Of a DNA stretch of 64,000 nt, positions 1,484 through 50,601 are shown piece after piece. The DNA is from Nigrospora sphaerica (lineage: Eukaryota; Ascomycota; Sordariomycetes; Amphisphaeriales; Apiosporaceae). Numbering within the stretch: position 1 is the first letter of the stretch; the number at the start of each line of letters is the position of its first letter. Both the position numbers and the translations under genes were made by a program. The DNA lies in NCBI GenBank assembly GCA_018287875.1, contig JAGVVL010000027.1:496001-560000 (forward strand), in the 5' to 3' direction. The notes beneath the pieces were generated by a model. That model worked only from the letters and a program-made list of their open reading frames with translations. It was not told the DNA's origin and made no database searches.

Positions 1484-4400
1484 TTAAGCTGCCAAGTGAC
1501 GACGAGCTCCCCATTGCTCGAGCAGTTTGGTGACCTCTCCATACCCCCCTGCAATATCGAGAGGCATCCTTTGATAGAGGTTCGCGATGTTAGGGTCGGC
1601 GCCATTCTCGAGGAGTATTCTGACGGTACTGACGTCACCTTGGCGAGATGCCCAATATACAGGTGTCCGACCACCTTGGTCCGTGGCGTTCACATCAGCC
1701 CCGTTTGCGACGAGCAGTTTCGTCACTTCTGGGTGGCAGTGCCTTGCCGCTATATGAAGGGGTGTCTCCGAAGTATTGCTCGAAGCCTCGGTATTAGCGC
1801 CGTGCTCGAGGAGTGTTCTCACCATTTCGACAGACCCGTTGAGAGATGCTGAATGAAGAGGTGCCCAGCCCATTCGATCCGTGGCCTCCACATTGGCCCC
1901 CTTCTCGGCAAGCAGTTGAACTATTTCTTGGTGGCGACGATTCACGGCCTGCATAAGAGCCGTCCAGTTGCCTTTCGACAAGGCCTCGATATTAGCGCCC
2001 TTCTCGAGGAGTAGTCGAACTAATCCGATATTCTCTTTCTTTTGGGAAGATGCCCAATGGAGAAGTGTTCCGTGGTTGCCGTACTCGGCGTTCACATCGG
2101 TGCCCTTTGCGACGAGAAATTCCACCACTTTGGCGTCTCCTGACCATAAGGCGAGGTCAAGAGGCGTTTCCCTTCTTGCCATAATGGCGTGTATGTCGGC
2201 ACCTGCTTCGATAAGCATCGCGGCATGTTCCGTGTGCCCTTTTATCAAAGCATGGTATAGAGGTGTCCACCCGCTGGGATCTTGGGCATCGACATGAGCA
2301 CCCCGGTCAATAAGTAGTCTTGCCATTTCAATGTTTCCCACATCCGAAGCGAGATGAATTGGCGCCACTCCACTACTGTTGGTGGCATCTGGACTAGCGC
2401 CTTGGTCGAGCAGTAACTGGGCTGTTTCGATGTGCCAACCGCGGACGGCGTAATGAAGAGGCATAAAACCCTGTAGATCTGAGATCATCGGTTCCGCGCC
2501 TTTTTCGAGGAGGATTTTGGCCATCTTGCTGTGACCTTCTCTCGAGGCATAGAAAAGAGGTGTCATACCGTCGCTATCCACAGGGTCTAGGCCGGCGCCT
2601 CGATTGACGAGGAGCTCAGCCATTTCGGTTGTATTTTTCTCCGCAGCGTGATGGAGGGGTGTGAGGTTTGAGTTGAGGGTGCCGCTGATAATACCGTTGG
2701 TGCTGTTGACATCGCCCCCTCTGTCAATGAGTATGGAAGCTAACTCAACGTGTTCTCCCCCTGCAACGTAGAATAAAGGCAAGAAGCCCTTTCCGTCTCT
2801 CAAGCGAACATCAATGACTTCTGTGGCACATAAAATTTTGAGCAGTTCCTGGCCTTCAGACCCGACAACGTAGGAAAGCACGCTTTGCTTCCTAGAGAAC
2901 CGGAAGTCTCTTCCGAAGAGATTGAACCACTTTTTGCTCGGAGAGAACGGCATGTCAGGAATTGAAAGCAAAGGATCCGGCACCCGCCTTCCGCTTTGGC
3001 GTTCAATTAGCGCTTGTACGGCGTTTGTACACTTCAAAGCAAGTGCAGCGAAAAGCGGTGTTCCGTATCTCTCCTCTTCCACCTGAAAACAGGAGCGGTC
3101 TTCTTGTTCAATGCTGATGAGTGCGCCAAAGTCGCCATGGGATAAGACGTAGAGAAGGCTGACGTCCGACGTGAACCAACGCACGTGGTGTTGCTCGAAG
3201 ATGTTGTAACACTTGACCCATGCAGCGAGAGGAAATGCGGCGAGAAAGTCGGTTTGGCTGCATGTGCCATGCTGGGCTTTGTCGGCATGGTACAGGACGC
3301 CTTGGATGGCATACTCCAAGAACGGATATCTTCGGTCAACGTCGGTTCGGCGGTCTTGATTTCCTTCTTTCCGGGGTCGCTTCGGTACCTCGAGTGCTGC
3401 AATAGCACGAGAAATGTGTCCACATGTTATATATGCGAAGCAAGCTCGCTTCAGTGTGTCGTGGCTTTGCCCTTCGAGATGCGCGCTGTCACCTTGCCAA
3501 ATCGCTTGAAGGCCGTTGTCCTTCAACAGGAAGTCTCGTACCGACTCGTGGATGAACTGGATCGTAGGAAGTTTCGATTTTGTGGATTCTGCCAGCCCCT
3601 TGGACTTGTCGAGAATGAACTTTGCGATGTCGTGATCGGTGATATCCTCGGTATGACAGTCGGCCAGGCTCTCGGGCTCGACCCCTGCCAATACTGCGAA
3701 GTACAGTTGTCTCGGGGAAAGTGGCCGCGTCGCGAAGAGCACCCACTGAATACAAAGTAGGAGCCCGTTTGCATTGCGAGTATCGCGGGTAAGTATGTCA
3801 CGAAAAAGCGCATGTAGGTCTCCAGGAATTTGACGAAGTCGATTGCGAAGCAAGTGCTTCTGGCCGGTATCGCATTCTTTGTTGAGGATGTCCACCACAA
3901 GAACAACCCACATGAATACGCCCGATGCTTTCTCTTGCAGGTCGGAACGGATCTGCTCCGAAAGCTTGCCGCCCCCAATCTGCAAGGCACTGTCGAGATA
4001 CTTTGCAATGTCGCCGTGATGCTCGTCCTTGTCTTCGAGAACGATGCTGCGTCCTTTCGGGACGGTGATGTGAGGATAATGCCTGCTTGCAAAGCAAACA
4101 CGGAATCGGCTTTTGGTGTCACTGAGTTCGCTCAGAAAACGAATCATGTCCCGGACCTCCTGTTCCTGGCACTCATCCAAGGCATCAATGAAGCAGACAA
4201 GCGACGTTTCGTCAAGGCCGTCGAGAGCTTCCTCGAATAGCTCTTTGAGGAGCTCGACATTCCATTGCGGCTGGCCGTTGCGGAATCGATCGAGAATTCT
4301 CTGAAGGCTCGGGCGCAGTCGGAGCAGTTGTACCAGCAGCGATTGATACAGCCCAAGAGTCGACTTTTCCATGTCTTCGCCTCGGGCGTTGAAAAAGAAG

Positions 4401-5038
4401 GATATGATGATCCCCTCGGATCTTGCCCGATGAGTCTGCTTGAGCAAGAACTTCATGAGGGTAGATTTACCAGCACCGGGTTTTCCTTTAATCCACAGGA
4501 AGCTCGCCTGGGACTGTGTACTGTCATCTCTGGACCATTGCAGGTATTCGGGGTCTCTGAGGAACCATCGGCAGGTCTTGGCGTGTGCTTGCTTGATGCT
4601 CATTTGGCGGGTATCCATCTGAGGAAATTGTAACGAATCCAAAAGCACCCGTCGACGTTCCACAAGTCCATTATGATCCCCATGGCTCTGAGCGACAGGG
4701 CCATAGTGGTTGTTGTTGATGTTGATGTCTCGAGCAACGCCGATCTGGCCATCGGTGTTCTGGATACCTTGGCCGGTAAACCAGTTCCGTGCCCCATGGT
4801 AGCGCTGATCGGAGTCCCCGGGGGCGTAGGCCTGGCTTCCGCTGCTTGACCCGGCATTGTCAAGTCTTTGTCGTTTCGGCGCCGGCTCCGACTCGTCTTG
4901 TCCGCGCATGAGCCCGCAAGGTTTCGTGGGCCGCAGGTCTCTCAAAATAGTAGGGGTAAAGAGCCCCAAGTTACGAGTCAAAGGCGGTTCCGCGGTAATT
5001 GGGTTGAGGCGTCGTCCTCGATCGCGCAACACAGACAC
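1484..5038 (-). CDS. NACHT-ankyrin NOD-like receptor with N-terminal short glycine/asparagine motif
   Basis: An open frame of 1184 residues without introns. A short motif at about residues 85-112 (F-T-GQGIQN...G-I-G-V-A-R-D-I-N-I-N-N-N) precedes a NACHT-type NTPase with Walker A GKPGAGKST (about 185-193) and Walker B LVCFIDALDEC (about 280-290). About 13 ankyrin repeats fill residues 755-1175 (for example the pattern TPLHHAAEKN...LLVNRGA). This is a STAND/NLR: ligand recognition by the repeats drives nucleotide-dependent oligomerisation. There is no N-terminal effector domain, only the short motif. The same motif ends the divergent PNP-like protein at 6047, so this protein is likely the sensor half of a pair. 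An in-frame ATG at 4909 (M-R-G-Q-D-E-S) gives a more typical fungal NLR start than the ATG at 5038, so the first 43 residues may not be translated. Confidence 0.9.
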   Translation of the reverse strand: MSVLRDRGRRLNPITAEPPLTRNLGLFTPTILRDLRPTKPCGLMRGQDESEPAPKRQRLDNAGSSSGSQAYAPGDSDQRYHGARNWFTGQGIQNTDGQIGVARDININNNHYGPVAQSHGDHNGLVERRRVLLDSLQFPQMDTRQMSIKQAHAKTCRWFLRDPEYLQWSRDDSTQSQASFLWIKGKPGAGKSTLMKFLLKQTHRARSEGIIISFFFNARGEDMEKSTLGLYQSLLVQLLRLRPSLQRILDRFRNGQPQWNVELLKELFEEALDGLDETSLVCFIDALDECQEQEVRDMIRFLSELSDTKSRFRVCFASRHYPHITVPKGRSIVLEDKDEHHGDIAKYLDSALQIGGGKLSEQIRSDLQEKASGVFMWVVLVVDILNKECDTGQKHLLRNRLRQIPGDLHALFRDILTRDTRNANGLLLCIQWVLFATRPLSPRQLYFAVLAGVEPESLADCHTEDITDHDIAKFILDKSKGLAESTKSKLPTIQFIHESVRDFLLKDNGLQAIWQGDSAHLEGQSHDTLKRACFAYITCGHISRAIAALEVPKRPRKEGNQDRRTDVDRRYPFLEYAIQGVLYHADKAQHGTCSQTDFLAAFPLAAWVKCYNIFEQHHVRWFTSDVSLLYVLSHGDFGALISIEQEDRSCFQVEEERYGTPLFAALALKCTNAVQALIERQSGRRVPDPLLSIPDMPFSPSKKWFNLFGRDFRFSRKQSVLSYVVGSEGQELLKILCATEVIDVRLRDGKGFLPLFYVAGGEHVELASILIDRGGDVNSTNGIISGTLNSNLTPLHHAAEKNTTEMAELLVNRGAGLDPVDSDGMTPLFYASREGHSKMAKILLEKGAEPMISDLQGFMPLHYAVRGWHIETAQLLLDQGASPDATNSSGVAPIHLASDVGNIEMARLLIDRGAHVDAQDPSGWTPLYHALIKGHTEHAAMLIEAGADIHAIMARRETPLDLALWSGDAKVVEFLVAKGTDVNAEYGNHGTLLHWASSQKKENIGLVRLLLEKGANIEALSKGNWTALMQAVNRRHQEIVQLLAEKGANVEATDRMGWAPLHSASLNGSVEMVRTLLEHGANTEASSNTSETPLHIAARHCHPEVTKLLVANGADVNATDQGGRTPVYWASRQGDVSTVRILLENGADPNIANLYQRMPLDIAGGYGEVTKLLEQWGARRHLAA

Positions 5039-6046
5039 GGTGTGATGAGACAGTGCGGAGAGGGTTCGAGCAGGCGCATAAGTCGGTAACAGTGCGATGG
5101 CGATATACAGCCCCAGCGGTCAGTGATGGTTTGGAGCGAAGGAATTTATCGCGGGTTTCGTGTTTCCGACAAGACGAGGCTTCGTGCTGACGCTCTCAAC
5201 GGGAAGGAGGGGTCGAACGACAGGGGGTTGCAGCCACTCACGTGGAGTCAGTTGGCGCATCGTTGCCAAGGGGAGGCCTCCGTGGAGGCTTTCTTAAGCA
5301 CCCAGACCACATTTTCCATTTCGCTATAGATACGATGCACTGAGAATTCGCGGTGCTTCTCGCGGCTCGCTGTTGGAAATGGATTATCTCTATGTGAATC
5401 TGCTGAAATAGCAAGCATGCGGATACCTTCTAAACAGGCTTCCTTACCAAGTAAGGCTGGCACTAGATCAACGATCCGTTTATGTGGAACGATCCGAAAT
5501 CCCTTTTGTGTCTCCACCTGATGATAGAGAGAATCCATTTCTATCCAGTAACCAGACGGATCTGATGCGCAACGGGTCGGTAGGTAGGGGTTTAATGGAC
5601 AGGAAAGGGTCAAGAGAAACACGGCTGCATAGGCCGTTGGCTAATCCCAAGATGGGCGCCACACCCGCTTTGAACGGGCGCGCTTACTGTTTGCTTGTCA
5701 TCTGCCACGACTCGGCTTGAAAACCAGTTCCCCGACCTCACCCAGCATGTAGCCAAGGCCGTTTCCCCAGACGCAGTATCAAGGCCGGGCGGGCAACAGC
5801 ACCCCTCGTCTACGCGGGACGGCAGGCTGAGCTGTTTACAAGCCAATCAATGCACAGCCATGCCTGTAGGCTACTGTGCATTGCCTCGTTCACACAGCCT
5901 TCACAACGAATGTCTTTGGCTTCCCAACTTCATCCATGCTTCGCGCCAGCATTTACTGAACTTGATGCCATACCGTACCCGGTCGCATTCACCGCCGAGA
6001 CGTGAACTCTTCCCCAGTACCACGACAGTAGCATCACGCTCTCAAG
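5039..6046. promoter_or_regulatory. Divergent intergenic region between NLR and PNP partner
   Basis: About 1 kb separates the divergent starts of the NACHT-ankyrin receptor and the PNP-like protein. I see no convincing gene in it. It must hold both promoters, so the two genes could be co-regulated. I could not identify a specific operator. Confidence 0.45.
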
Positions 6047-16206: not shown

Positions 16207-17318
16207 CTAGATGTAGTCATGGACGACAAAGTCATCCGGCTTCGGCTTTACCGTGCCCTGCTTGGGGACCGGGATCGTCTTGTCCTTCACAAAACTCCGC
16301 ACCTTCTCGTAGTCGCTACATGTGTGCATGCGGGCCATGTCGCCCGTCACACGACCCTCGCGCCCAAGCCACAATAACGGGGTGACACCAATGTCGGCCG
16401 TACACTGAAGACGCAGACGGATCACCTCAACACAGTGATCTGGAAATCCCACGCCGTGCGGTCAGCTCCACGTTCGGCTTTGATCATCGGGGTTCCGAGC
16501 GGTGGCCCCGGGGTACGGGGGGAAAAGGGGAGAGATGACACGTACCGATATGCAGCTGCACATACTCCTCGGGCCCGTCGCAGTGTGGCGGTCCACACGT
16601 GGCCCGCGTGTGCTCAATGTTGTAATACAGGTTCATTCGGAGAAGGTTGAGGCAATGCATCTGGTGGATGGCCTCGACCTTTACCGGGAAGCCCTCGAGT
16701 CCCAGCTCTGGGTTGTCGAAATAGACGTGCCGCGCCGGATCGAGTGCTGCCTGTGCTGCGTCCTCGCGCGCCACGAGGAGGAGCCCCGAGTCTATCAAAT
16801 GTCAGCAGGCAGCTACCCGTTCTCGCCAGTGATGGTCGGATGGGAGAAGAGGTCTGGATTCCAGACGGGGAGTCCGCACCAACTTGCGTGTACTCGTACC
16901 ACGCGGCATCTGTCGCGTTGGAGCTGTGCTGCCGGAATATGTTGTGTTCATGGTCGTAGAAGGTCACGTTCAGAAGCTGGGGTTGCGGCTTCGTCACAAG
17001 ATGCTCGACAACTCGCGGTACACCTGTCGGCGGGTGGTTCACCGGTAATGGGCAGCCACTTCGCAGCGGCCCCAGGGCCGCCAGGAGCGTGAGCAGGTTC
17101 GTCGCACCCAGGACAACCACGGCGGCCACAAGGTAGCGGTTGGTTCTCGGCCCGGCATCCTGCCACGGCCTCGGAACCGCCCGTCTCCGAGGCGTGCCCG
17201 CCTCGCTGTCGGCGTCGGCGGCGGCAAACTCTTTCGTTAACAAGCCGACGCTGTCCGCCGCATCGCGCTCTGGCGATGATGAGGACAAGGATGAGGACGA
17301 GGATGAGGAAGACCGCAT
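16207..17318 (-). CDS. UstYa-family (DUF3328) oxidase, RiPP cyclisation candidate 1
   Basis: Three exons on the minus strand (17318-16880, 16791-16546, 16439-16207) give 305 residues. A Ser-rich cytoplasmic N-terminus is followed by one membrane helix at about 62-83 (YLVAAVVVLGATNLLTLLAAL). Two HxxHC motifs, the signature of this family, lie at about 189-193 (IHQMHC) and 227-231 (LHIDHC). The second is created exactly by the last splice junction. Downstream text DHCVEVIRLRLQC...DIGVTPLLW is also typical. UstYa-type proteins catalyse oxidative cyclisation of ribosomal peptides such as ustiloxin and asperipin, and related side-chain oxidations in other peptides. A repeat precursor at 19410 and a second family member at 18029 lie beside it, which supports that role here. 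The first intron boundary (donor GTGCGG) is the least certain. An upstream in-frame ATG at 17507 exists but looks less likely. Confidence 0.87.
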
Positions 17319-18028: not shown

Positions 18029-18842
18029 TTACCACGCCGTCTTTCGGCAACGATAGAAGCCCAGCTCTACCTCATTCACGTCATGCGGGCCCTCGCAGCC
18101 AATCTCCAATTGGTCGGCGCAGTGCTCGGTATGCTGCCGTGGTCGGTCGTCAGCGCACACAACTTGCAAAAGTCGTGCTCAGTGCAGGGCGTGTGGACGG
18201 GGAAGGGGGTCACTTACGTGCATGCTGACCGTTTTGTTGTCCAGAAATTCCATGCGATTGGTGACGGCATATTGCAGTTTGCGCCACTGGAAGAGACAGT
18301 GGGCACCGTGGTATCTGGTGGGCGTGTCCGCCGGGTCAGCGAGCGTCGTTCCGGCACGACGGTAGTAGTTGGAAGCCCAAAAGGCAGAGCTTTCGCGCGT
18401 GCACTTACCGCGGGGTGTAGACCGTGATATGTGTCCCCGCCCACAGTTCCTCGGGTCGGAGCGCTATCGTCATGTTCTTGTCGCGGTACCACGGGCGGTC
18501 CTCGAAGACGGGGTGCGCCGCCGTCAGTTCGGGAAACACACACGCTGGCGGCATCCAGCCGTAAAACAGCGGCTCCATGACGCACCCACGCTCGCGGGCG
18601 ACGGCCGACGAGCGTCCGCAGTAGTTCCAAGCCTCGGCCTCTACCTCGGCCGCCGTTGGAGGCGTAAATACCGCTCTCTGAGTTGCGACGGCCGCCAGGG
18701 CGAGGAGTAGCGTTGTCAGGCCGCCTGCGCCGAAATGCAGCAGTTTGGAACGCCAAAGGCGGCGCGGAGGTGGGATACTGGCTGTCGAATCGGCCAGTGG
18801 TTCATATGCGACTTCCTTGTACGGCTCGTTGCTCGACTTCAT
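18029..18842 (-). CDS. UstYa-family-like (DUF3328-type) protein, RiPP cyclisation candidate 2
   Basis: Three exons on the minus strand (18842-18409, 18314-18218, 18133-18029) give 211 residues; all phases agree and donors are GTAAGT or near. One membrane helix at about 34-56 anchors the protein. The lumenal part has the conserved text EAWNYCGRSS, GCVMEPLFYGWMPPACVFPE and HPVFEDRPWY. Two HxxHC motifs follow: H-G-A-H-C at about 147-151 and H-T-E-H-C at about 178-182, each just after a splice junction. It ends ...DVNEVELGFYRCRKTAW. I recognise this as the divergent short branch of UstYa-like proteins. Two such oxidases commonly act together on one precursor, and this gene lies about 570 bp from the divergent precursor start. 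The assignment to the pathway is inference from motif and position. Confidence 0.85.
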
Positions 18843-19318
18843 GATGGCCTTGTCCGAGGGTTTGGCGTGAGGCGGAAACGGCGAGATGAAGCATTTCGCA
18901 GGCGAGTTCCATATATCTATGTTCTCTGTGGAGATCTACTGCTTGGCATCAACATTGCACGAGGAAGACTGTGCAGTCCCCTGCCCCACCCACTGGGCAT
19001 CAGACCGACTACTTGGCGCCGAAAGGGAGGAGGGGAACTAGTCGCCCTGCCGCCTCGCCGGTAGGATTCCGCTACTACCAAATATAGAAGGAGGCCATGT
19101 CCTATCTCTTGGCTCTGTCAAGTCGTCGGGATGGTGTGCCCGACAGGCGTGACAACCCCTCCCTTTACTGGTGCTGCAGATACAGGGCATGCCGCTGACA
19201 TCTAGTGGGAAAGCATGGAAGAGGGGATAGGGCTTGCCGAGACGGAGCCCCGCGACGTACCAGGGCTCAAGGGAGGGAACTGGGGAGCAAGGCTGCCCCC
19301 AGTTATGAGGCCTAGCAT

Positions 19319-19324
19319 TATAAA
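19319..19324 (+). promoter_or_regulatory. TATA box of the RiPP precursor gene
   Basis: TATAAA lies 86 bp upstream of the chosen ATG at 19410. It supports that ATG over the in-frame upstream ATG at 19215, which precedes the box. The region from 18843 to 19409 is the shared divergent promoter with the second UstYa-like gene. Confidence 0.55.
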
Positions 19325-19409
19325 GACGATAGCAGGTCCCATTTATGGATGCAGGTTCATGGCGTTTGTGCCTCCATACGCTTCCTTGTTTCCATTCCTA
19401 TCCATCGCC

Positions 19410-19991
19410 ATGAAGGGTCTTCTCCTCCTCAGCCTCGCAACCGCCGGTCTGGCCGCTCCGGTATACCAGGGTAGTAAGTGCTCCTCTTATCTCTCCGCCG
19501 AGGAATCTTACTTACGCGTGCGAAAAAGCGTCCTGGATTATCCCCGCCGGTGCCGAGGGCGAAACAGCCGTGGCCGAGAAGGCCAAGCGTGTATACCAAG
19601 GCAGTACGTTGCTCCCGCCCCTTGATGCGCCCCATGGTGGTGGCTGACCAGATGCGCCCAAGCCTCCTGGATCATCCCCGCAGGTGCCGAGGGCGAAGCA
19701 GCCGAGAAGGCGAAGCGCGTGTACGAAGGAAGTGAGTGACGCCTGCGGGTTGGAGACTTGTTTCCCGGGCCCGACCCATGCTAATTGCCGGCAGCCTCGT
19801 GGATTGTGCCGGCCGGCGCCGAGGGTGAAGCTGCCGGGAAAGCCAAGCGCGTGTACCAAGGCAGTAAGTAGCCTCGCCAGTCATGCGTCGCCGAGGGGAA
19901 ATACCAAGGGGGGGTTATGGCTGACACTTATGCTTCCTGCGCAGCCTCTTGGATTATCCCGGCCGGTGCCGAGGGCGAGACGGCGGTGTAA
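19410..19991 (+). CDS. Dikaritin-type RiPP precursor peptide with four core repeats
   Basis: Five small exons (19410-19473, 19529-19603, 19663-19731, 19795-19863, 19945-19991) encode 107 residues. Residues 1 to about 16 form a signal peptide (MKGLLLLSLATAGLA). The rest is four copies of a unit containing Y-[QE]-G-T-S-W-I-[IV]-P-A-G-A-E-G-E. The first three units end in A-K-R (Lys-Arg at 41-42, 64-65 and 87-88), matching Kex2 sites; the last ends at the stop. Each copy is interrupted by a phase-1 intron after the same Gly codon, with the Thr codon split in all four. Codons differ synonymously between copies while the peptide is nearly constant, so the peptide is under selection. Signal peptide, repeats, KR sites and adjacent UstYa genes together define a dikaritin-like precursor. 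The exact core ring is unknown; Tyr and Trp are the obvious cyclisation residues. Confidence 0.9.
19461..19991 (+). repeat. Four exon-intron repeat modules within the RiPP precursor
   Basis: The repeating unit is one exon of 69-75 nt plus one intron of 55-81 nt. Introns lie at 19474-19528, 19604-19662, 19732-19794 and 19864-19944. All four donors follow GGN-A and all four acceptors precede the rest of a Thr codon and Ser-Trp. Intron sequences have diverged while exon peptides are conserved. Confidence 0.88.
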
Positions 19992-35300: not shown

Positions 35301-36680
35301 GAACTAGCTCGCACGGAGAAGTCACGGAGACGTTTAGACCAAAGGATTGCCATTAAGCTTGACATGCAGGATATCTCTTATACATGTAGATAGACTCTCG
35401 CACGCCAGATGCCCCTTGAGAGGCGGGACACTGTCCCAGTATGGTGATAATACATCCATCAATCCATCCATCCATCCGTCATGGTTGAGCTGCTACCGTC
35501 AACTCTCGGCGCGCTTTCTCAAACTAGTGCTAAAGGCGCGACTAGAGAAGGCACGCTGGAGCATCACAGCCCTACCGGAAGCCCAAGCCGACGAAGCCCG
35601 TCGCCTAGCCGCGTCTTAGCGGTTTGAACGACCTCCATAAATCCACTTCCTGCTGAGCAAACGCCTCTGCTCCATCGAAAACCCTCCGCTCCATCTAGAG
35701 ATATTGGCCTCGCAACCCGACCGCGCACTAGACCGGCTTCTACGCGAGTATGGTGCGCTTTTGCCCACGAGCGTCGCCGCGATGATCCCGAACGCACCAT
35801 CTTCTCATCCACCGCCAAGCTCGCTGTCGGCGACGTCGCCCTGGCTTTCTGCGCATATAAGTCGCCCATGCCCTGGGCTGGAAACCACTTGGCCTCGTCG
35901 TCTTCGTCCGCCGACCATGGTTATCGTCGTTAGCTAAGACGAGTCTCCCGCCCGTCCCCGCGCTTGTCGCCCCGCCCATCGTCCCGTCCGCCTCCACACC
36001 TGCAGGCCCCGCGCAAGAAGGCGCCGTGGACTTGGAATTGGGAGACGCGGTCGACGACCAGAACGGTGACGACGATCATCACGAGGACCAAGAGGCCAAC
36101 GGCGAGGATCTCAGCATTCCATGGAAAGCTGAGGTGGGGGTCTGCCAAGCGGGTCTCATTCTTAAACAGCTTGCAGGCAGGCTAGGGCTTGCGAGCTAGC
36201 AGGGTGGGGGTTGAAGGCCACGGAGCGCATGGGCGGTGTTGTTCACATCCGTAGGCTAAAGCAAACTCAATCTCCATAGCTTATATGGAAATCATTCCAA
36301 GCTTAGAGCACCATCGTCAATTGTGGGAGGGTGGCCATGGCGGATGCACGGCCTCATATTCCATACATCTTGTCGTGTGAATAGCCGATGATTGGACAGT
36401 TGCGGTCGCGCACGCCAGGTCGCGCGGGGTTGACCTGTGTGCCTCGTCAGCCGCACCAGGCTGGCAGCGACGATGCTGTCTGCTGATGGTCCGCTCCTTG
36501 GGCGCAGCCAGTTCCATCTTTGGGCTTCCACTCCTCATCACTCCGAGGCGTCCTCGCTGCCAGAACAGTGCCTCGAAAAGGGACACGAAAACGGCCGCTG
36601 AAGACAGGAAGTCACTCGAAGATCTTTGGATCTGCGACACGCCGACCTAGGCCGCGAACGATCGGCTGCGCTAGTCCGTC
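29349..36680. other. 7.3 kb without a supported gene
   Basis: Only short competing open frames occur. The first few hundred bases should be the OPT promoter, and the last few hundred the promoter of the PNP-NLR. A plus-strand frame at about 35860-36200 has codon-like, Asp/Glu-rich text ending D-L-S-I-P-W-K-A-E-V and may be a decayed gene end, but no start or domain is visible. Short ATCC tandem units lie near 35455-35478. Confidence 0.4.
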
Positions 36681-39600
36681 ATGGCCACGGGACGCGCCGG
36701 CACGCGCACCGTCCCGCTACCCCAAGGCCGGCCGCCACGACCGACGACCGGGCGCGACTTCGCTATCGCCATCTTCTGCGCCCTCCCGCTCGAAGCCGAT
36801 GCTGTCCTTGCCCTATTCGACCACCACTGGGACGACGACGGCCCCACGTACGACCCCGCCCCCGGCGATCCGAATACCTACTCGACCGGCGTCATCGGTC
36901 TACATAATGCCGTGCTCGTGCACATGCCGGGCATGGGCAAGGTAGCTGCCGCCGCGGCCGCAGCACGTTGCGGATCTACCTTTACGAATGTTAAGCTGGC
37001 TATCGTCGTAGGCGTCTGCGGTGCTGTCCCTTTTACGACGGGCGGAGAGGAGATCGTGCTCGGCGACGTTATTATCGGCGAAGGCGTGGTCCAGTACGAT
37101 CTCGGGCGGCGGATGCCAGAGGGATTCGTACGAAAGAACACACTACAGGATTCGCTCGGGAGACACAGTGCCGAGGTTCGCGGGCGACTGGCTAAACTGA
37201 AAGGCGTGCACGGGCGGGCGAAGCTGCAAGAGAAGACAACCGTCTACTTAGTTGCGAGCCAGTGCAAGACTGCTCTACCAGCCCCGTATCCTGGTGCCCA
37301 GCATGACAAACTATTTCAAGCGACGTACCGGCACGTTACTGACGGGAAGCTCTGCGATGAGTGCGGGTGCAATGGGCCTCTCGTGCCACGAAGTCGCCTC
37401 GAGCAGGGCAGTACGCAGCCTATGGTTCACATCGGCCTAGTCGCATCGGGCGACACCGTGCTCAAATCCGGCGAAGACAGAGACACGCTGGCCCGGCAGG
37501 ACGGCATAATAGCGTTCGAGATGGAAGGCTCGGGGGTATGGGACGTCTTTCCGTGCGTGGTGATCAAAGGCGCGTGTGACTACGCGGACAGCCATAAGAT
37601 GAAGGCATGGCAGCGGTACGCAGCGGCGACCGCGGCAGCGTGCATGAAAGCGTTCCTGGATTCCTGGCCGCCATCCACTTCCTATTCAGGTATGTGCGTT
37701 CCCGTCATCGAGTCCAGAGGAGACTAGTAGGCCTCTGGACTCTTCAGACATTCGCTGATTCCGTTAGGGCCGCGACCAGTCCCCGAACCGCGAGCAGTCC
37801 CTGAGCTGCGACCTATCTCGAGACACACTGACGGATCCACGTGTAGGTTAACCCACCAGCTGCATTGTTCCTATCTTTAAGCATTATGGTCACTGCTGTT
37901 CGCCACGACAAGAGGACTTGGCGATGCTAATGTTCTGTACACAGCATCCCAATACCTTATCCCGCTTCTTCGAAACCGCAAGTTCACAGGCCGGGATGCG
38001 ATCCTTAAGGGACTTCAGCAGAAGTTGTTCATCGATAAGGAGTGCCAAAAACTCGCCATCGTCGGACTCGGTGGCGTCGGTAAGACCCAGATTGCCTTAC
38101 AGCTTGCCTACTGGGTGAAGGACAACCAGCCCGACTATTCGATCTTCTGGGTACCGATCCTTAGTCACGCCAGCTTTAAGCAAGCGTACCTAGAGATAGG
38201 AAAGAAGCTCGGTGTTCCTACGAACATTGACGAGGAAGACCCGAAGGAGTTAGTACGGCGATACCTCAACTCAGACGAGGCGGGACGATGGCTCCTGATC
38301 GTTGACAACGCGGACGACATAGAGATGGTGCTCGGATCGAACGACGGTATCGACCAGTACCTCCCGGAAAGCGACAACGGCCTGACGCTGTTCACTACCC
38401 GATCGAGCGAGGTGGGCCAATCGGTGGCGGGAAGCGATGTGGTCGAGCTCCACGAGATGGATCCATCGGAGGCCATGGACCTCCTAGAGAAGTCGCTTCT
38501 TCGGAGGGAACTCACCCAGGACAAGGCTATCGCAATCAAGCTGCTGCAAAAACTCGAACATTTACCCCTGGCGATCACACAAGCGGCCGCGTACCTGAAC
38601 TGCAATCGACAAGTGACAATTCGGAGGTACCTCGAACTCCTCTATGGTACGGAGCGGGACATGGTAGGGCTGATGAGCCGGGAGTTCAAGGACGCGACAC
38701 GATATCGGGAGTCGAGGAACGCAGTGGCGACCACATGGCTCGTGTCCTTCGACCAGATCCAAAACATTGACAACGTTGCCGCCGATTTACTGTCCTTCAT
38801 CTCGTGTATTGAGCCGAAAGCAATTCCGCGCTCTCTCCTCCCAGACACCGAGTCAGTGGAGACGGAGAGCGCAATCGGCACGTTATGCGGCTACGCGTTC
38901 CTCGCTATCCGAGAAGATGAGGAGCTGTATGACATGCACAGCCTCGTGCATTTGGCGACCAAAGTGTGGATCAGGAAAGCGGCACGCACGGAGGAGACGA
39001 CGGTCCAGGCTCTCCAGCATTTGGTGTCCATCTTTCCATCGTCGGACCGCGCTAACCGCCTCGTACGGCAAGCATACCTTCCTCACGCGTTCCGGCTTCT
39101 TAACGGTAGCGAAGCGTATCGGGTTAATGAGCGGTTCGATCTTTATTACCAGGTTGGAAAGTGCTTATATATAGACCGGCGTTTTAAGGAAGCCGTGCGA
39201 TGCTATGAGGAAGTCGTGCGCTGGGAGAGTGACACGCTTCTGGATAAGGATAACGACCGACTCGCGTCCGAGCACGAGCTCGCAAGGGCATACCTTAACG
39301 CTAGGCGGATCCCGGAGGCGATCGAGATGTTCGAGCACGTGGTGGAGATGCGGAAAGAGACGCTCGACGAGAGGGATCATTCTCGACTCGCGTCCGAGCA
39401 TAACCTCGCGAGCGCATATCTTAACGCCAGGCGGATCCCGGAGGCGATCAAGATGTTGGAGCACGTGGTGGCGGTGCGGAAAGAGACGCTCAACGAGATG
39501 GATAACGAACAACTCACATCCGAGCACGAGCTCGCAAGTGCATACCTCGACGACAGGCGGATCCCGGAGGCGATCGAGATATTGGAGCACGTGGTGGCGG

Positions 39601-40340
39601 TGCAAAAAGAGACGCTCGACGAGAGGGATCATTCTCGACTCACGTCCGAGCACGAGCTCGCAAGGGCATACCTCAACGCTAGGCGGATCCCGGGGGCGAT
39701 CGAGATGTTCGAGCACGTGGTGGAGATGCGGAAAGAGACGCTCGACGAGAGGGATCATTCTCGACTCGCGTCCGAGCATAACCTCGCGAGCGCATACCTT
39801 AACGCCAGGCGGATCCCGGAGGCGATCAAGATGTTGGAGCACGTGGTGGCGGTGCGGAAAGAGACGCTCAACGAGATGGATAACGAACGACTCACATCCG
39901 AGCACGAGCTCGCAAGTGCATACCTCGACGACAGGCGGATCCCGGAGGCGATCGAGATGTTCGAGCACGTGGTGGCAGTGCAGAAAGAGACGCTCGACGA
40001 GAGGGATCATGACCGACTGACGTCCGAGCACGAACTCGCAAGGGCATACCTCAACGATAGGCGGATCCCGGAGGCGATCGAGATGTTGGAGCACGTGGTG
40101 GCGGTGCGGAAAGAGACGCTCGACGAGAGGGATCATTATCGACTCGAGTCCGAGCACGAATTCGCAAGGGCATACCTCGACGATAGACGGATCCCAGAGG
40201 CGATTGAATTACTAGAACATGTGGTGGCCATTGAGAAGGGCTTACTAAAGGAGGACGACCCCGACCGCATGGTATCTGAACATTTACTAGAAGAGGCATA
40301 TGAGATGATGAGCGACGGGTCATCGGGGCCTAGTCCATGA
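36681..40340 (+). CDS. PNP_UDP-NB-ARC-TPR NOD-like receptor
   Basis: Three exons (36681-37689, 37768-37842, 37945-40340) join in phase to give 1159 residues. Donors are GTATGT and GTAGGT, and a CTGAT branch site precedes the first acceptor. Residues about 25-325 are a PNP_UDP nucleosidase-like effector domain (FAIAIFCALPLEADAVLALF, GVCGAV, AFEMEGSGVWD, GACDYADSHK). An NB-ARC ATPase follows, with Walker A GLGGVGKT at 402-409 and Walker B WLLIVDNADD. From about residue 796 there are eight and a half TPR units of 42 residues. This is a classic fungal NLR architecture, thought to act in non-self recognition and regulated cell death. Unlike the 6047 gene, effector and sensor are in one chain. The repeat array is highly homogeneous, and a repeat element begins 6 bp after the stop codon. 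Confidence 0.93.
39245..40305 (+). repeat. 126-bp tandem TPR-coding repeats
   Basis: Eight to nine units of 126 bp encode TPR copies of the form RL-[AT]-SEHEL-A-[RS]-AYL-[ND]-x-RRIPEAIEM-[FL]-EHVV. Units 1-3 and 4-6 are near-identical in order, so a 378 bp block appears to have been duplicated. Confidence 0.92.
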
Positions 40341-47257: not shown

Positions 47258-50200
47258 ATGCGTCTCTTGCAGATAGAGCACGGCGGGCGCCTAAGCCTGA
47301 CCAAGGACCTGATCGACAACATTCCCCCGTATGCTATTCTGTCGCACACGTGGGGCGACGATGACCAGGAGCTCACTATCCAGGACGTCCAGCAGCATAC
47401 TGGTCAGCATAAGGCGGGGTACAGGAAGCTTACGTTCTGCGGCGCGCAGGCTGCCTCGGATGGCCTGCAGTACTTTTGGGTCGATACGTGCTGCATCGAC
47501 AAATCGAGCAGCGCCGAGCTGACCGAAGCGATCAACTCGATGTTTCGCTGGTATCAGAACGCCGCCCAGTGCTATGTTGATCTGGCCGATGTCTCTGCAG
47601 GCGCCGGAAGCGAGGTTGAAAAGCCGCTGGGCGCACTGTGGGCTGGGGCCTTCCGGAAAAGTCGGTGGTTTTCGCGCGGCTGGACGCTCCAGGAATTGCT
47701 CGCTCCTAAATCTGTCATATTCTTTTCGGTGGAAGGCCGACGCTTAGGCGATAAGACGTCGCTGGAGGGGCTCCTGCAAGAAATCACGGGGATTTCAATC
47801 GATGCCCTTCGAGGGCAACCGCTGGGCCAGTTCAGCGTGCACGAGCGATTCTCTTGGATGAGAAGCCGTACGACGAAGCGTCCAGAGGATCGAGCATACT
47901 CGCTACTTGGAATCTTTGACATTTACCTGCCGTTAATCTACGGTGAAGGAGAGGAAAATGCATTCATTCGACTGCGGGGGGAGATTCAGAGGCGTTCACA
48001 AGGCACCGCCGGAACTACCCCAGGTAAGTCCAGCTACTAAAATGACGTCGCGACCTCTAATGCTTTTCGATAGATAAACATGACGCCCATTTCATTGTAC
48101 CATTTGGACAGAATGAAAACTTTGTGGGCCGTGAGTCTATTCTACGGCAACTTATCGGGAGGCTGCCGCCTACCACATATCCTAATACGTGCCAACGGAC
48201 CGTTATCGAGGGTCTCGGCGGCATCGGGAAAACGCAGGTCGCCATCGAGGCGGCCTACCAGGTCCGCGACGCACACCCCGAATGCTCCGTCTTCTGGGTC
48301 CCGGCCGTAGACATGGTCATGTTTGAGAACGCCTACCGCGATATTGGCCGAGCCCTCGGGGCAAAGGGGATTGAGGACGATGAAGCCGACGTCAAAGCCC
48401 TCGTGAAAGCGGCTCTTAGTCGAGGCGACGCAGGACAGTGGCTTCTTATTATCGACAACGTTGATGATGCACGGCTATTGACCGACGGCCAGATGATGTC
48501 CTATCTACCTTTTAGCCGGGAGGGCTCAATTCTGTTCACTACCCGGAACCACCAAGTTGCAGCCCGACTGGATGCGCGACAGGGTGCGCTCAGGCTCGAT
48601 CCCCTAGACGATTCCGAGTCCGCTCAGCTCTTACACCAGGGCCTCCAGTCGAACCAGAAAGGCGACCCCAAGAGCACGACAGACCTGTTAGACTACCTCG
48701 TCTATCTACCGTTAGCTATCCGGCAGGCCTCTGCATACATGACGTCGAATTCACAGGTAACAGTGGCCCGTTACCTAGGTTACTGCACATCGAGCGACCT
48801 GGGCATGATTAAGATACTCAGCCGGGACTTCGAGGACCAAGACCGGTACGAAGCGATCCGGAATCCGGTGGCAACGACATGGCTCATTTCTTTTGAACAA
48901 GTCACCCGGGACGATCCGCTTGCCGCGGGTTATCTTCGGGCGATCTGCTACTTCGAAGAAAAGGATATCCCTATCTCTTTACTCCCAGCTGGCAAGGATG
49001 AGATGGAGAGGGACGAAGCCATCAGCACCTTAAAGGCGTACGCATTCCTTATTGATCGGGACACGCCGGATCAATTCGACATCCATCGGCTCATACGCCT
49101 GACGATGCGGAACTGGCTATGTACGCGCGGAGAGCAGAGCCGGCAGGTTACAGATGTGATTCAGCAGCTCTCAGAAGCGTTTCCGTGGCCGACGCACGAG
49201 AACCGAGACATATGGACATCCTACTTGCCCCATGCGCAATCGGCGCTTGGGTTCCGTGGCGAATGCACGGAAAGGGAGGCTCTGGGTTCGTTACAACATA
49301 ACGTTGCTAAGGGATACCACTTGCTTGGTAAATATGCGGAGGCACAGGAGATGCACCGGGCGACACTGGAACTGAGGGAAGGGGTGCTGGGCCCCGAGAA
49401 CCCAGACACACTCGCTAGCATGGACAATCTGGCCAACGTACTCTCCAGCCAGGGGAAGTACGAGGCGGCGGAGGAAATGCATCGGGCGACACTAGAACTG
49501 AGGGAAAGGGTGCTGGGCCGTGAGAACCCGGCCACACTCTCCAGCATGAACAACCTGACAATTGTGCTCTCCAACCAGGGGAAGTACGAGGCGGCGGAGG
49601 CGATGCATCTGGCGACACTGGAACTGACGAACACGGTGCTGGGCCGGGAGAATCCGAATACACTCGCCAGCATGAACAACCTGGCAGAAACATTTCGACA
49701 CCAGGGGAAGTACGAGAAGGCAGAGCAGATGCATCGGCGGGCACTCGAACTATGTAAGGCGGTGCTAGGCCGTGAGAACTCGTCCACACTCGACAGCATG
49801 AACAACCTGGCCAACGTGCTCTACAGCCAGGGGAAGTACGAGGCGGCGGAGGAGATGCATCGGGCGACCCTGGAACTGAGGGAGAAAGTGCTAGGTCGGG
49901 AGAACCCGTCCACACTCACCAGCATGGACAACCTGGCTCTTATGCTCTCCAGCCAGGGGAAGTACGAGGAGGCAGAACAGATGCATCGGCGGGCGCTCGA
50001 ACTATTTAAGGCGGTGCTAGGCCGTGAGAATCCGGATACACTCAGCAGCATGAACAACCTGGCCATCTTGCTTAGGTACCAAGGAAATTACGAGGCGGCG
50101 GAGGAGATGCATCGGGCGACATTGGAATTGAGGGAGAAAGTGCTAGGTCACAAGAACCCGTCCACACTCGACAGCATGAACAATCTGGCCATCGTGCTTA

Positions 50201-50601
50201 GGAACCAAGGAAAGTACGAGGCGGCGGAGGAAATGCATCGGGCGACATTGGAACTGAGGAAGAAGGTGCTAGGCCGTGAGAACCCGTCCACACTCAACAG
50301 CATGAACAATCTGGCCATTGTGCTTGAAAACCAAGGAAAGTACAAGGCGGCTGAGGAGATGCATCGGGAAGAGTTGGAGCTCTGTATGAAGATTCAGGGG
50401 CCTGAGAACCCGGATACACTCACCAGCATGTACAACCTGGCCATCGTGCTTAGGAACCAAGGAAAGTACAAGGCGGCGGAGGCGATGCATCGGGCGACAC
50501 TGGAACTGAGGGGGAAGATACTAGGGCCAAAGCACCCCGATACGCTCTCTAGTATGGACAGCCTGGCAGAAGTGCTTAGCAATCTGAAGACCCATAGCTA
50601 A
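47258..50601 (+). CDS. HET-NB-ARC-TPR NOD-like receptor
   Basis: Two exons (47258-48023 and 48074-50601) join in phase across a 50 bp intron with GTAAGT, a GCTACTAA-type branch site and TAG. The product is 1097 residues. The N-terminal HET domain shows its three signature blocks: YAILSHTWGDDDQEL, YFWVDTCCIDKSS and WFSRGWTLQELLAP. An NB-ARC ATPase follows, with Walker A GLGGIGKT at about 302-309 and Walker B WLLIIDNVDD. From about residue 660 there are nine full kinesin-light-chain-type TPRs (LGRENPxTLxSMxNLAxVLxxQGKYEAAEEMH). HET-domain NLRs trigger heterokaryon incompatibility and programmed cell death on non-self recognition; the trigger here is unknown. The ORF is intact. TGATACG-type repeats lie on both sides in the same orientation. 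Confidence 0.94.
49371..50590 (+). repeat. 126-bp tandem TPR-coding repeats of the HET-NLR
   Basis: Nine full 42-residue units plus degenerate ends. Units share long near-identical stretches at nucleotide level, indicating recent duplication or gene conversion. The sequence is unrelated to the TPR array of the 36681 gene, although the period is the same. Confidence 0.9.

Follow-up and report, generated by a model that had tools for sequence, protein, structure and literature searches.

A repeat-peptide precursor gene with one intron per predicted core, beside two UstYa-type genes of Nigrospora sphaerica

A small precursor gene and its neighbours

We analysed a window of 64,000 nucleotides (C18:496001-560000 of the 51.6 Mb genome of Nigrospora sphaerica), in which a first-pass annotation had proposed a dikaritin-like RiPP precursor with four repeated units, three of them ending in Lys-Arg. 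Re-splicing reproduced its coordinates, splice sites, 108-codon frame and units: the predicted spliced frame is 324 nt with the stop and encodes 107 aa. The starts of two UstYa-type genes, UstYa2 and UstYa1, lie 0.6 and 2.1 kb upstream of the precursor on the opposite strand. The features, in window positions, are as follows.

About 6.1-6.9 kb: phosphorylase-superfamily match (Pfam scan)
8.1-9.5 kb: MFS transporter (Pfam scan)
About 10.4-11.3 kb: rhodopsin-like gene (Pfam scan)
16207..17318, minus strand: UstYa1, UstYa/DUF3328 gene, 305 aa; exons 17318-16880, 16791-16546 and 16439-16207 including the stop
18029..18842, minus strand: UstYa2, UstYa-type gene, 211 aa; exons 18842-18409, 18314-18218 and 18133-18029 including the stop
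18843..19409: spacer of 567 bp between the divergent UstYa2 and precursor genes
19410-19991, plus strand: precursor gene, five exons, spliced ORF with its ATG at 19410
19410..19473, plus strand: exon 1, signal peptide MKGLLLLSLATAGLAA and the first VYQG, ending after base 1 of a Thr codon
19474..19528, plus strand: intron 1, 55 nt, phase 1, GTAAGT...AAAAAG
19529..19603, plus strand: exon 2, 75 nt, phase 1-1, TSWIIPAGAEGETAVAEKAKR and VYQG
19604..19662, plus strand: intron 2, 59 nt, phase 1, starts GTACGT, ends AG
19663..19731, plus strand: exon 3, 69 nt, phase 1-1, TSWIIPAGAEGEAAEKAKR and VYEG
19732..19794, plus strand: intron 3, 63 nt, phase 1, starts GTGAGT, ends AG
19795..19863, plus strand: exon 4, 69 nt, phase 1-1, TSWIVPAGAEGEAAGKAKR and VYQG
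19864..19944, plus strand: intron 4, 81 nt, phase 1, starts GTAAGT, ends AG
19945..19991, plus strand: exon 5, TSWIIPAGAEGETAV and the stop; last unit, without KR
23.3-25.8 kb: GT90 (Pfam scan)
26.2-28.8 kb: OPT transporter (Pfam scan)

With the predicted splicing, the precursor protein reads MKGLLLLSLATAGLAA-P-VYQGTSWIIPAGAEGETAVAEKAKR-VYQGTSWIIPAGAEGEAAEKAKR-VYEGTSWIVPAGAEGEAAGKAKR-VYQGTSWIIPAGAEGETAV. It carries an N-terminal secretion signal, judged by hydropathy alone (the hydrophobic stretch begins at residues 3-5 and the best 12-residue window starts at residue 4), and four units of the form V-Y-[QE]-G-T-S-W-I-[IV]-P-A-G-A-E-G-E that are split by dibasic sites, with KR after three of the four. 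There is no cysteine. In each unit an intron splits the same Thr codon between bases 1 and 2, and because exons 2-4 measure 75, 69 and 69 nt, each could be skipped or repeated with the frame kept. A TATAAAG read by eye at 19319-19325 lies 85 nt 5' of the ATG. The Glu and Val variants of the earlier annotation both exist, but not in separate units: because both fall in unit 3, the cores come in two versions, VYQGTSWIIP (three units) and VYEGTSWIVP (one). Their computed [M+H]+ values are 1163.6095 and 1150.5779 unmodified, and 1161.5939 and 1148.5622 after loss of two hydrogens. Residues 61-106 match Pfam DUF2793 above its cut-off (31.9 versus 27 bits, E 1.2e-7), which probably reflects a fortuitous resemblance over a short stretch, and this identity was set aside.

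Both neighbours contain the HxxHC(x)nHxxHC arrangement of DUF3328/UstYa-associated RiPP enzymes (HQMHC and HIDHC in UstYa1, HGAHC and HTEHC in UstYa2), and each has an N-terminal hydrophobic stretch of membrane-helix length. Their splice sites were chosen by hand; those of UstYa2 are borne out by the alignment of its homologues. UstYa1 matches PF11807 with an E value of 9.7e-34 (117.6 bits versus a cut-off of 25), which places a UstYa gene beside the precursor. UstYa2 falls below the same cut-off (13.0 versus 25 bits, E 0.096) and so does not gain Pfam membership; in its family, 2 of 23 members match PF11807 at E<=1, the best at 0.03. A paralogue elsewhere in the genome, G000:C33:3764075, matches UstYa2 with 35% identity (E 1.2e-13), and the same place has an overlapping PF11807 match of 27.6 bits, which is over the cut-off; it thereby ties UstYa2 to the UstYa1 family. 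On its motifs, its topology and this bridging paralogue, we place UstYa2 as a UstYa-type protein.

At E<=1e-3 we found 83 UstYa2 homologues, in genera that span several Ascomycota orders (for example Xylaria, Hypoxylon, Apodospora, Trichoderma, Dothidotthia and Mollisia). A pair of HxxHC motifs, at a constant distance of 31 residues, occurs in 34 of them, one motif in a single homologue and none in 48. The CLFQW stretch of UstYa2 exon 2 is present in 33, and 32 of these carry both motifs. Among the 50 without CLFQW, 17 stop at the exon-1 boundary landmark, 20 have no landmark and 13 continue otherwise, two of the last group with two HxxHC motifs. In a predicted model of the homologue P0011 (mean pLDDT 68.6, from a 22-sequence alignment), a long N-terminal helix covers residues 30-54, and helices at 143-159 and 172-184 start at or just before the HxxHC motifs; these modelled helices are in keeping with the description of the DUF3328 protein CctR (PMC12435403). 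The model had no PDB match at E<=0.001, and its weak, partial Foldseek matches (best E 3.4) were set aside. The UstYa2 profile also matched superoxide dismutases (best E 4.3e-4, over 44 profile positions in the HxxHC region), again weakly and in part, and these matches were set aside too.

For a tyrosinase of the UstQ/PhomQ kind, none of the 62 matches in the genome falls in the window, and six-frame Pfam scans of 5.1-27.8 and 28.8-33.7 kb returned no methyltransferase, S41 peptidase or zinc-finger regulator. The rest of the window was covered by eight chosen ORFs. Such scans can miss short-exon or remote genes: over 16.2-20.0 kb they found UstYa1 in two pieces and missed UstYa2. The transporter and GT90 genes are not supported as cluster members, lying beyond 4.5 and 2.9 kb without Pfam matches, although they may belong to it. 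The dikaritin-like reading of the earlier annotation is supported by the KEP plan of the precursor and by the adjacent UstYa genes, but the tyrosinase and methyltransferase of phomopsin-defined clusters were not found nearby, and so we call the system dikaritin-like rather than a strict dikaritin. The asperipin cluster, which is grouped with the dikaritins, is likewise described without a tyrosinase in PMC6514808. By its sequence, the precursor is a DUF3328-linked KEP.

Farther out, the window holds three NLR-like frames, one with ankyrin repeats and an NPHP3/NACHT-type NTPase (1487-5119, minus strand) and two with NB-ARC and TPR repeats (37881-40337 and 48061-50598, both plus strand); a phosphorylase-superfamily frame at 36675-37724 directly precedes the first NB-ARC frame.

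Selection on the units and a core shared with relatives

Comparing unit with unit over 16 codons, in six pairs that are not independent, we counted synonymous differences at 40.5 of 70.5 sites (pS 0.57) and nonsynonymous differences at 7.5 of 217.5 (pN 0.034). Given this disparity, the repeats look old and selected on the protein of the spliced reading. With splice ends removed, the introns were no more alike than shuffles in five of six pairs; the likeness of introns 2 and 4 exceeded all but 0.4% of 500 shuffles, a figure uncorrected for six tests. A 26-base degenerate unit pattern, TGGATNNTNCCNGCNGGNGCNGAGGG, had four matches in the 51.6 Mb genome, all within the precursor gene, and its reversed control had none. 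A genome-wide search found no second precursor copy: of six matches, five lay inside the precursor gene and one, G000:C33:1446347, was at chance level (E 1.09; 60 flanking bases inspected) and was rejected. On this sequence evidence, the precursor is a real gene, an open frame under selection with predicted splicing.

The first precursor search returned four relatives at E<=1e-3 (P0001-P0004), from two lgn ORFs, Pseudomassariella vexata (Amphisphaeriales) and Apodospora peruviana (Sordariales). A profile search that scored the 7996 candidates sharing most words brought the number to 11 at the same threshold, adding Xylaria scruposa and jgi, lgn and ena ORFs. Conservation of the repeats in related genomes was the test that the first-pass annotation had set for itself, and these relatives in other fungi bear it out; together with the two UstYa-type genes upstream, they support its dikaritin-like RiPP precursor.

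What the relatives keep is [WY]-x-[VI]-P-[AP]-G-x-E-G-E and not the VY[QE]GTSW stretch; the residues before the aromatic vary freely among them. In the window gene together with the 11 relatives, 23 units have a GxEG preceded by eight residues; 4 of these 23 belong to the window gene itself. An aromatic [WY] at position i with [VI] at i+2 occurs in 23 of 23, a count that overstates conservation because the profile contains this stretch and the counting demanded GxEG. Position i is W in 11 and Y in 12, i+2 is V in 20 and I in 3, i+3 is P in 22 and A in 1, and i+1 is variable. Adding the weaker hits P0095-P0097 and P0099 gives [WY]-x-[VI] in 27 of 27 units; P0098, too short before the motif to be included, also reads YIVP. 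The octamers preceding GxEG take 16 distinct forms, 8 with W and 8 with Y. The informative part of the rule, as read from these sequences, is the exchange of W and Y at one place with V or I kept. This aromatic-x-beta-branched spacing is that of the Tyr-to-Ile link in ustiloxin and phomopsin, whose cores are YAIG (PMC6514808) and YVIPID (PMC7099791) and whose ring links Tyr to an internal Ile (PMC9233826).

The relatives also point to a shared gene structure. P0001 and P0003 read VYLG-SKC..., then SWVVPAG or SWIVPPG, a sequence that seems to run on through an intron located where the window gene has intron 1. In P0005 and P0091-P0098, all 10 sites after NAL fit a phase-1 GTRAGT donor, as deduced from the protein. 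With all codons taken as equally frequent, a single site would fit by chance with a probability of about 0.006; the sites are related to one another, and the E values of P0095-P0098 exceed 1e-3. The apparent read-through and the donor-fitting sites suggest that an intron in each unit is shared by the family.

Five of the 11 relatives appear to share a contig with a UstYa2 homologue, judged by equal contig size and the same source or organism, from lists that give the longest contig of each cluster only.

P0001/P0017: apparently shared contig, 2859; close linkage within 2.9 kb
P0003/P0007: apparently shared contig, 8941; close linkage within 8.9 kb
P0002/P0006: apparently shared contig, 3698523; same contig only
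P0004/P0014: apparently shared contig, 4490349; same contig only
P0089/P0013: apparently shared contig, 644296; same contig only

For the other six (P0005 and P0090-P0094), those lists show no UstYa2 homologue on a contig of equal length.

A proposed pathway and the competing readings

We propose, with good confidence, that the locus specifies a ribosomal peptide, released by Kex2 from a repeat precursor and oxidatively modified by UstYa1 and UstYa2 from the adjoining genes; these copper-enzyme-like genes probably tie the peptides into rings. The five exons would be spliced to yield a secreted precursor of 107 aa. Signal peptidase would free the first unit, and Kex2 would cut after KR and Kex1 trim, as in the known pathway, to leave VYQGTSWIIPAGAEGE...A peptides (computed [M+H]+ of the Kex2/Kex1 peptide VYQGTSWIIPAGAEGEAAEKA, 2148.0607). 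UstYa1 and UstYa2 would then act on these peptides in the secretory lumen by copper-dependent oxidation, both reading the conserved PxGxEGE tail as a recognition sequence. Trp7 would be joined to the beta carbon of Ile/Val9, matching the i/i+2 arrangement in ustiloxin and phomopsin; Tyr2 perhaps forms a second link. A further protease would finally remove the tail, releasing modified VY[QE]GTSWI[IV]P peptides. With the exact link left aside, the steps as far as the two oxidising enzymes are the most secure part of this proposal and very probably correct. The bond between Trp7 and Ile/Val9 as such is put forward tentatively, at somewhat less than even chances.

Tryptophan lacks a phenol oxygen, and an ustiloxin-like ether therefore cannot form on Trp7. 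Trp cross-links occur in moroidin, a plant burpitide. Victorin, another UstYa-type RiPP, has a ring from a non-phenol aromatic side chain (Phe to Leu; PMC9233826), which shows that no phenol is needed on the residue from which such a ring starts; its core differs from the present one, and its Phe is C-terminal. Paired HxxHC motifs bind two coppers in CctR, a dicopper, O2-dependent DUF3328 enzyme (PMC12435403). The UstY family is reported to be active in vitro, with the asperipin ether link (PMC12186524). Plant burpitides, made by BURP-domain cyclases of another enzyme family, also combine a dicopper site of four planar histidines with repeated recognition-plus-core units (PMC12435403, PMC12186524).

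The strongest competitor keeps the same pathway and places the cross-link at Tyr2, whose phenol oxygen would bond to a beta carbon in the manner of asperipin and ustiloxin, leaving Trp7 as part of a recognition region. Ustiloxins, phomopsins and asperipins are all linked through Tyr (PMC9233826), Tyr2 is present in all four window units and in P0001-P0003, and Tyr occurs in 65.6% of DUF3328-linked KEP repeats versus 38.2% of those without DUF3328, whereas W is not enriched in the figures of PMC7329392 (20.5% versus 24.5%). Yet Tyr2 is missing from the more distant relatives (ALFDTW in Apodospora, SFIGIY and NFDGIY in Xylaria), and all 23 counted units carry an aromatic residue at the site aligned with Trp7; we regard the Tyr2 link as unlikely, though a serious contender.

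Less probable still is that UstYa1 and UstYa2 act on the core chiefly by hydroxylation, dehydrogenation or another oxidation and close no ring. One phomopsin study reportedly implicates DUF3328 proteins in the installation of dehydroamino acids. Hydroxylation, halogenation and isomerisation have also been ascribed to members of the family (PMC12435403), but a fixed aromatic-x-beta-branched spacing is what would be expected of a ring-forming substrate.

That the product is a linear, pheromone- or hormone-like secreted peptide, with the UstYa genes as chance neighbours or acting on another substrate, is very improbable: many KEPs do yield linear peptides (PMC9769878), the Ala-Pro that follows the signal peptide might, by eye, be a STE13 site and six relatives showed no UstYa2 homologue on a contig of equal length, but almost all pheromone-annotated KEPs, with three exceptions in PMC7329392, have no DUF3328 neighbours whereas here two adjoin, the UstYa2 pairing recurs in the other five relatives on their apparently shared contigs, and the precursor has no cysteine.

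Place among known systems and related loci

The proposed ring-forming system shares with ustiloxin UstA and phomopsin PhomA a signal peptide, repeated cores, KR sites, DUF3328 genes beside the precursor and an aromatic residue with a beta-branched one two places on (PMC6514808, PMC7099791). It differs in having Trp for Tyr at the putative ring position, a GxEGE tail and one intron per unit, and in the lack of a tyrosinase in the window and of methyltransferase and peptidase domains in the scanned 5.1-27.8 and 28.8-33.7 kb. Like the asperipin-2a cluster (aprA, aprY, aprT and aprR), it is small, without tyrosinase, and pairs a precursor with UstYa-type enzymes (PMC6514808). Here, unlike in that cluster, there are two UstYa-type genes, no reductase in the scans and a nearest MFS gene whose end is some 10 kb away from the precursor, beyond the rhodopsin-like gene; the asperipin core, FYYTGY, is unrelated.

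DUF3328 neighbours, mostly right beside the KEP gene, were recorded for 22% of catalogued KEPs, and 1758 such KEPs had been counted in 2020 (PMC7329392). The catalogued DUF3328-linked KEPs (Umemura 2020; Le Marquer 2019) include a P-3, W-with-P type beside DUF3328 genes (PMC7329392), which the present precursor resembles; motifs such as EDYXI and YVW[G/A][G/S] (PMC6339444) are unlike its core. This precursor type may already be listed in the two catalogues (PMC7329392, PMC6339444), with which it was compared through their printed motifs. Six unit strings (for example VPAGAEGE) were absent from the searched literature, which comprised open papers without supplements, and in the same literature we met neither a Trp-linked UstYa peptide nor a precursor with an intron in each core. 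The system is thus of a known kind, a DUF3328-linked KEP, of which its core, its tail and its UstYa2 subfamily make it a variant.

Other loci of the same genome contain repeat precursors near UstYa genes. An unrelated one (L032; G000:C7:2198000-2207900, about 2090-1000, minus strand) has UstYa-linked repeats KYSDYG|KYNYKTYGDYGKYKRDAAPEVEARTD with a phase-1 intron per repeat, read by eye, and we therefore rejected the view that the window precursor alone has an intron in each of its repeats. Five further precursors near UstYa matches (L023, L026, L028, L031 and L033) have their repeats in one open frame each: GGTIYKKDEGELEAATR, KRAYLVSYPEEDDKVA, AGWLYIKRDGKDNNVDAAATR, SIYEDPKTATLPYAPG and APHHKTKGGKGRKQQRDVDE, respectively. 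L019 may hold a second precursor of the L028 type, its plus-strand read resembling the L028 antisense read. At L035 (G000:C5:1312000-1321900, near 3282, minus strand), repeats VEDYVGGFEVEKR are accompanied by tyrosinase matches (C5:1317661-1323877) and UstYa matches (C5:1314182 and 1321888), and by its sequence this locus looks like a cluster of the ustiloxin/phomopsin type. PF11807 had 52 matches genome-wide at E<=0.001, of which many probably represent different exons of a single gene, and UstYa-family or UstYa2-like matches form groups at G000:C9:394779-403762, C10:3524938-3531198, C12:7720327-7726256 and C13:1223109-1236803.

As a further suggestion, a little more tentative than the Trp7 bond itself, the window precursor and its relatives may represent an as yet undescribed lineage of UstYa-linked RiPPs, with a tryptophan-based fungal counterpart to the ring of ustiloxin and phomopsin. 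This ring would link the Trp of position i, or in some relatives a Tyr, to the beta carbon of the Val or Ile two residues on, and would be made with no tyrosinase, by one UstYa protein and one of the UstYa-like subfamily, from precursors with interchangeable exons of one core each. If true, UstYa ring chemistry would extend from Tyr and Phe to Trp, and [WY]-x-[VI]-P-[AP]-G-x-E-G-E would be a simple rule for finding more such precursors. Gene callers can miss these precursors because an intron cuts every core, and, since Pfam mostly misses the UstYa2-like subfamily, genome mining may overlook their clusters. With two enzymes and one small precursor, the locus would offer a compact system for asking which UstYa protein makes which bond.
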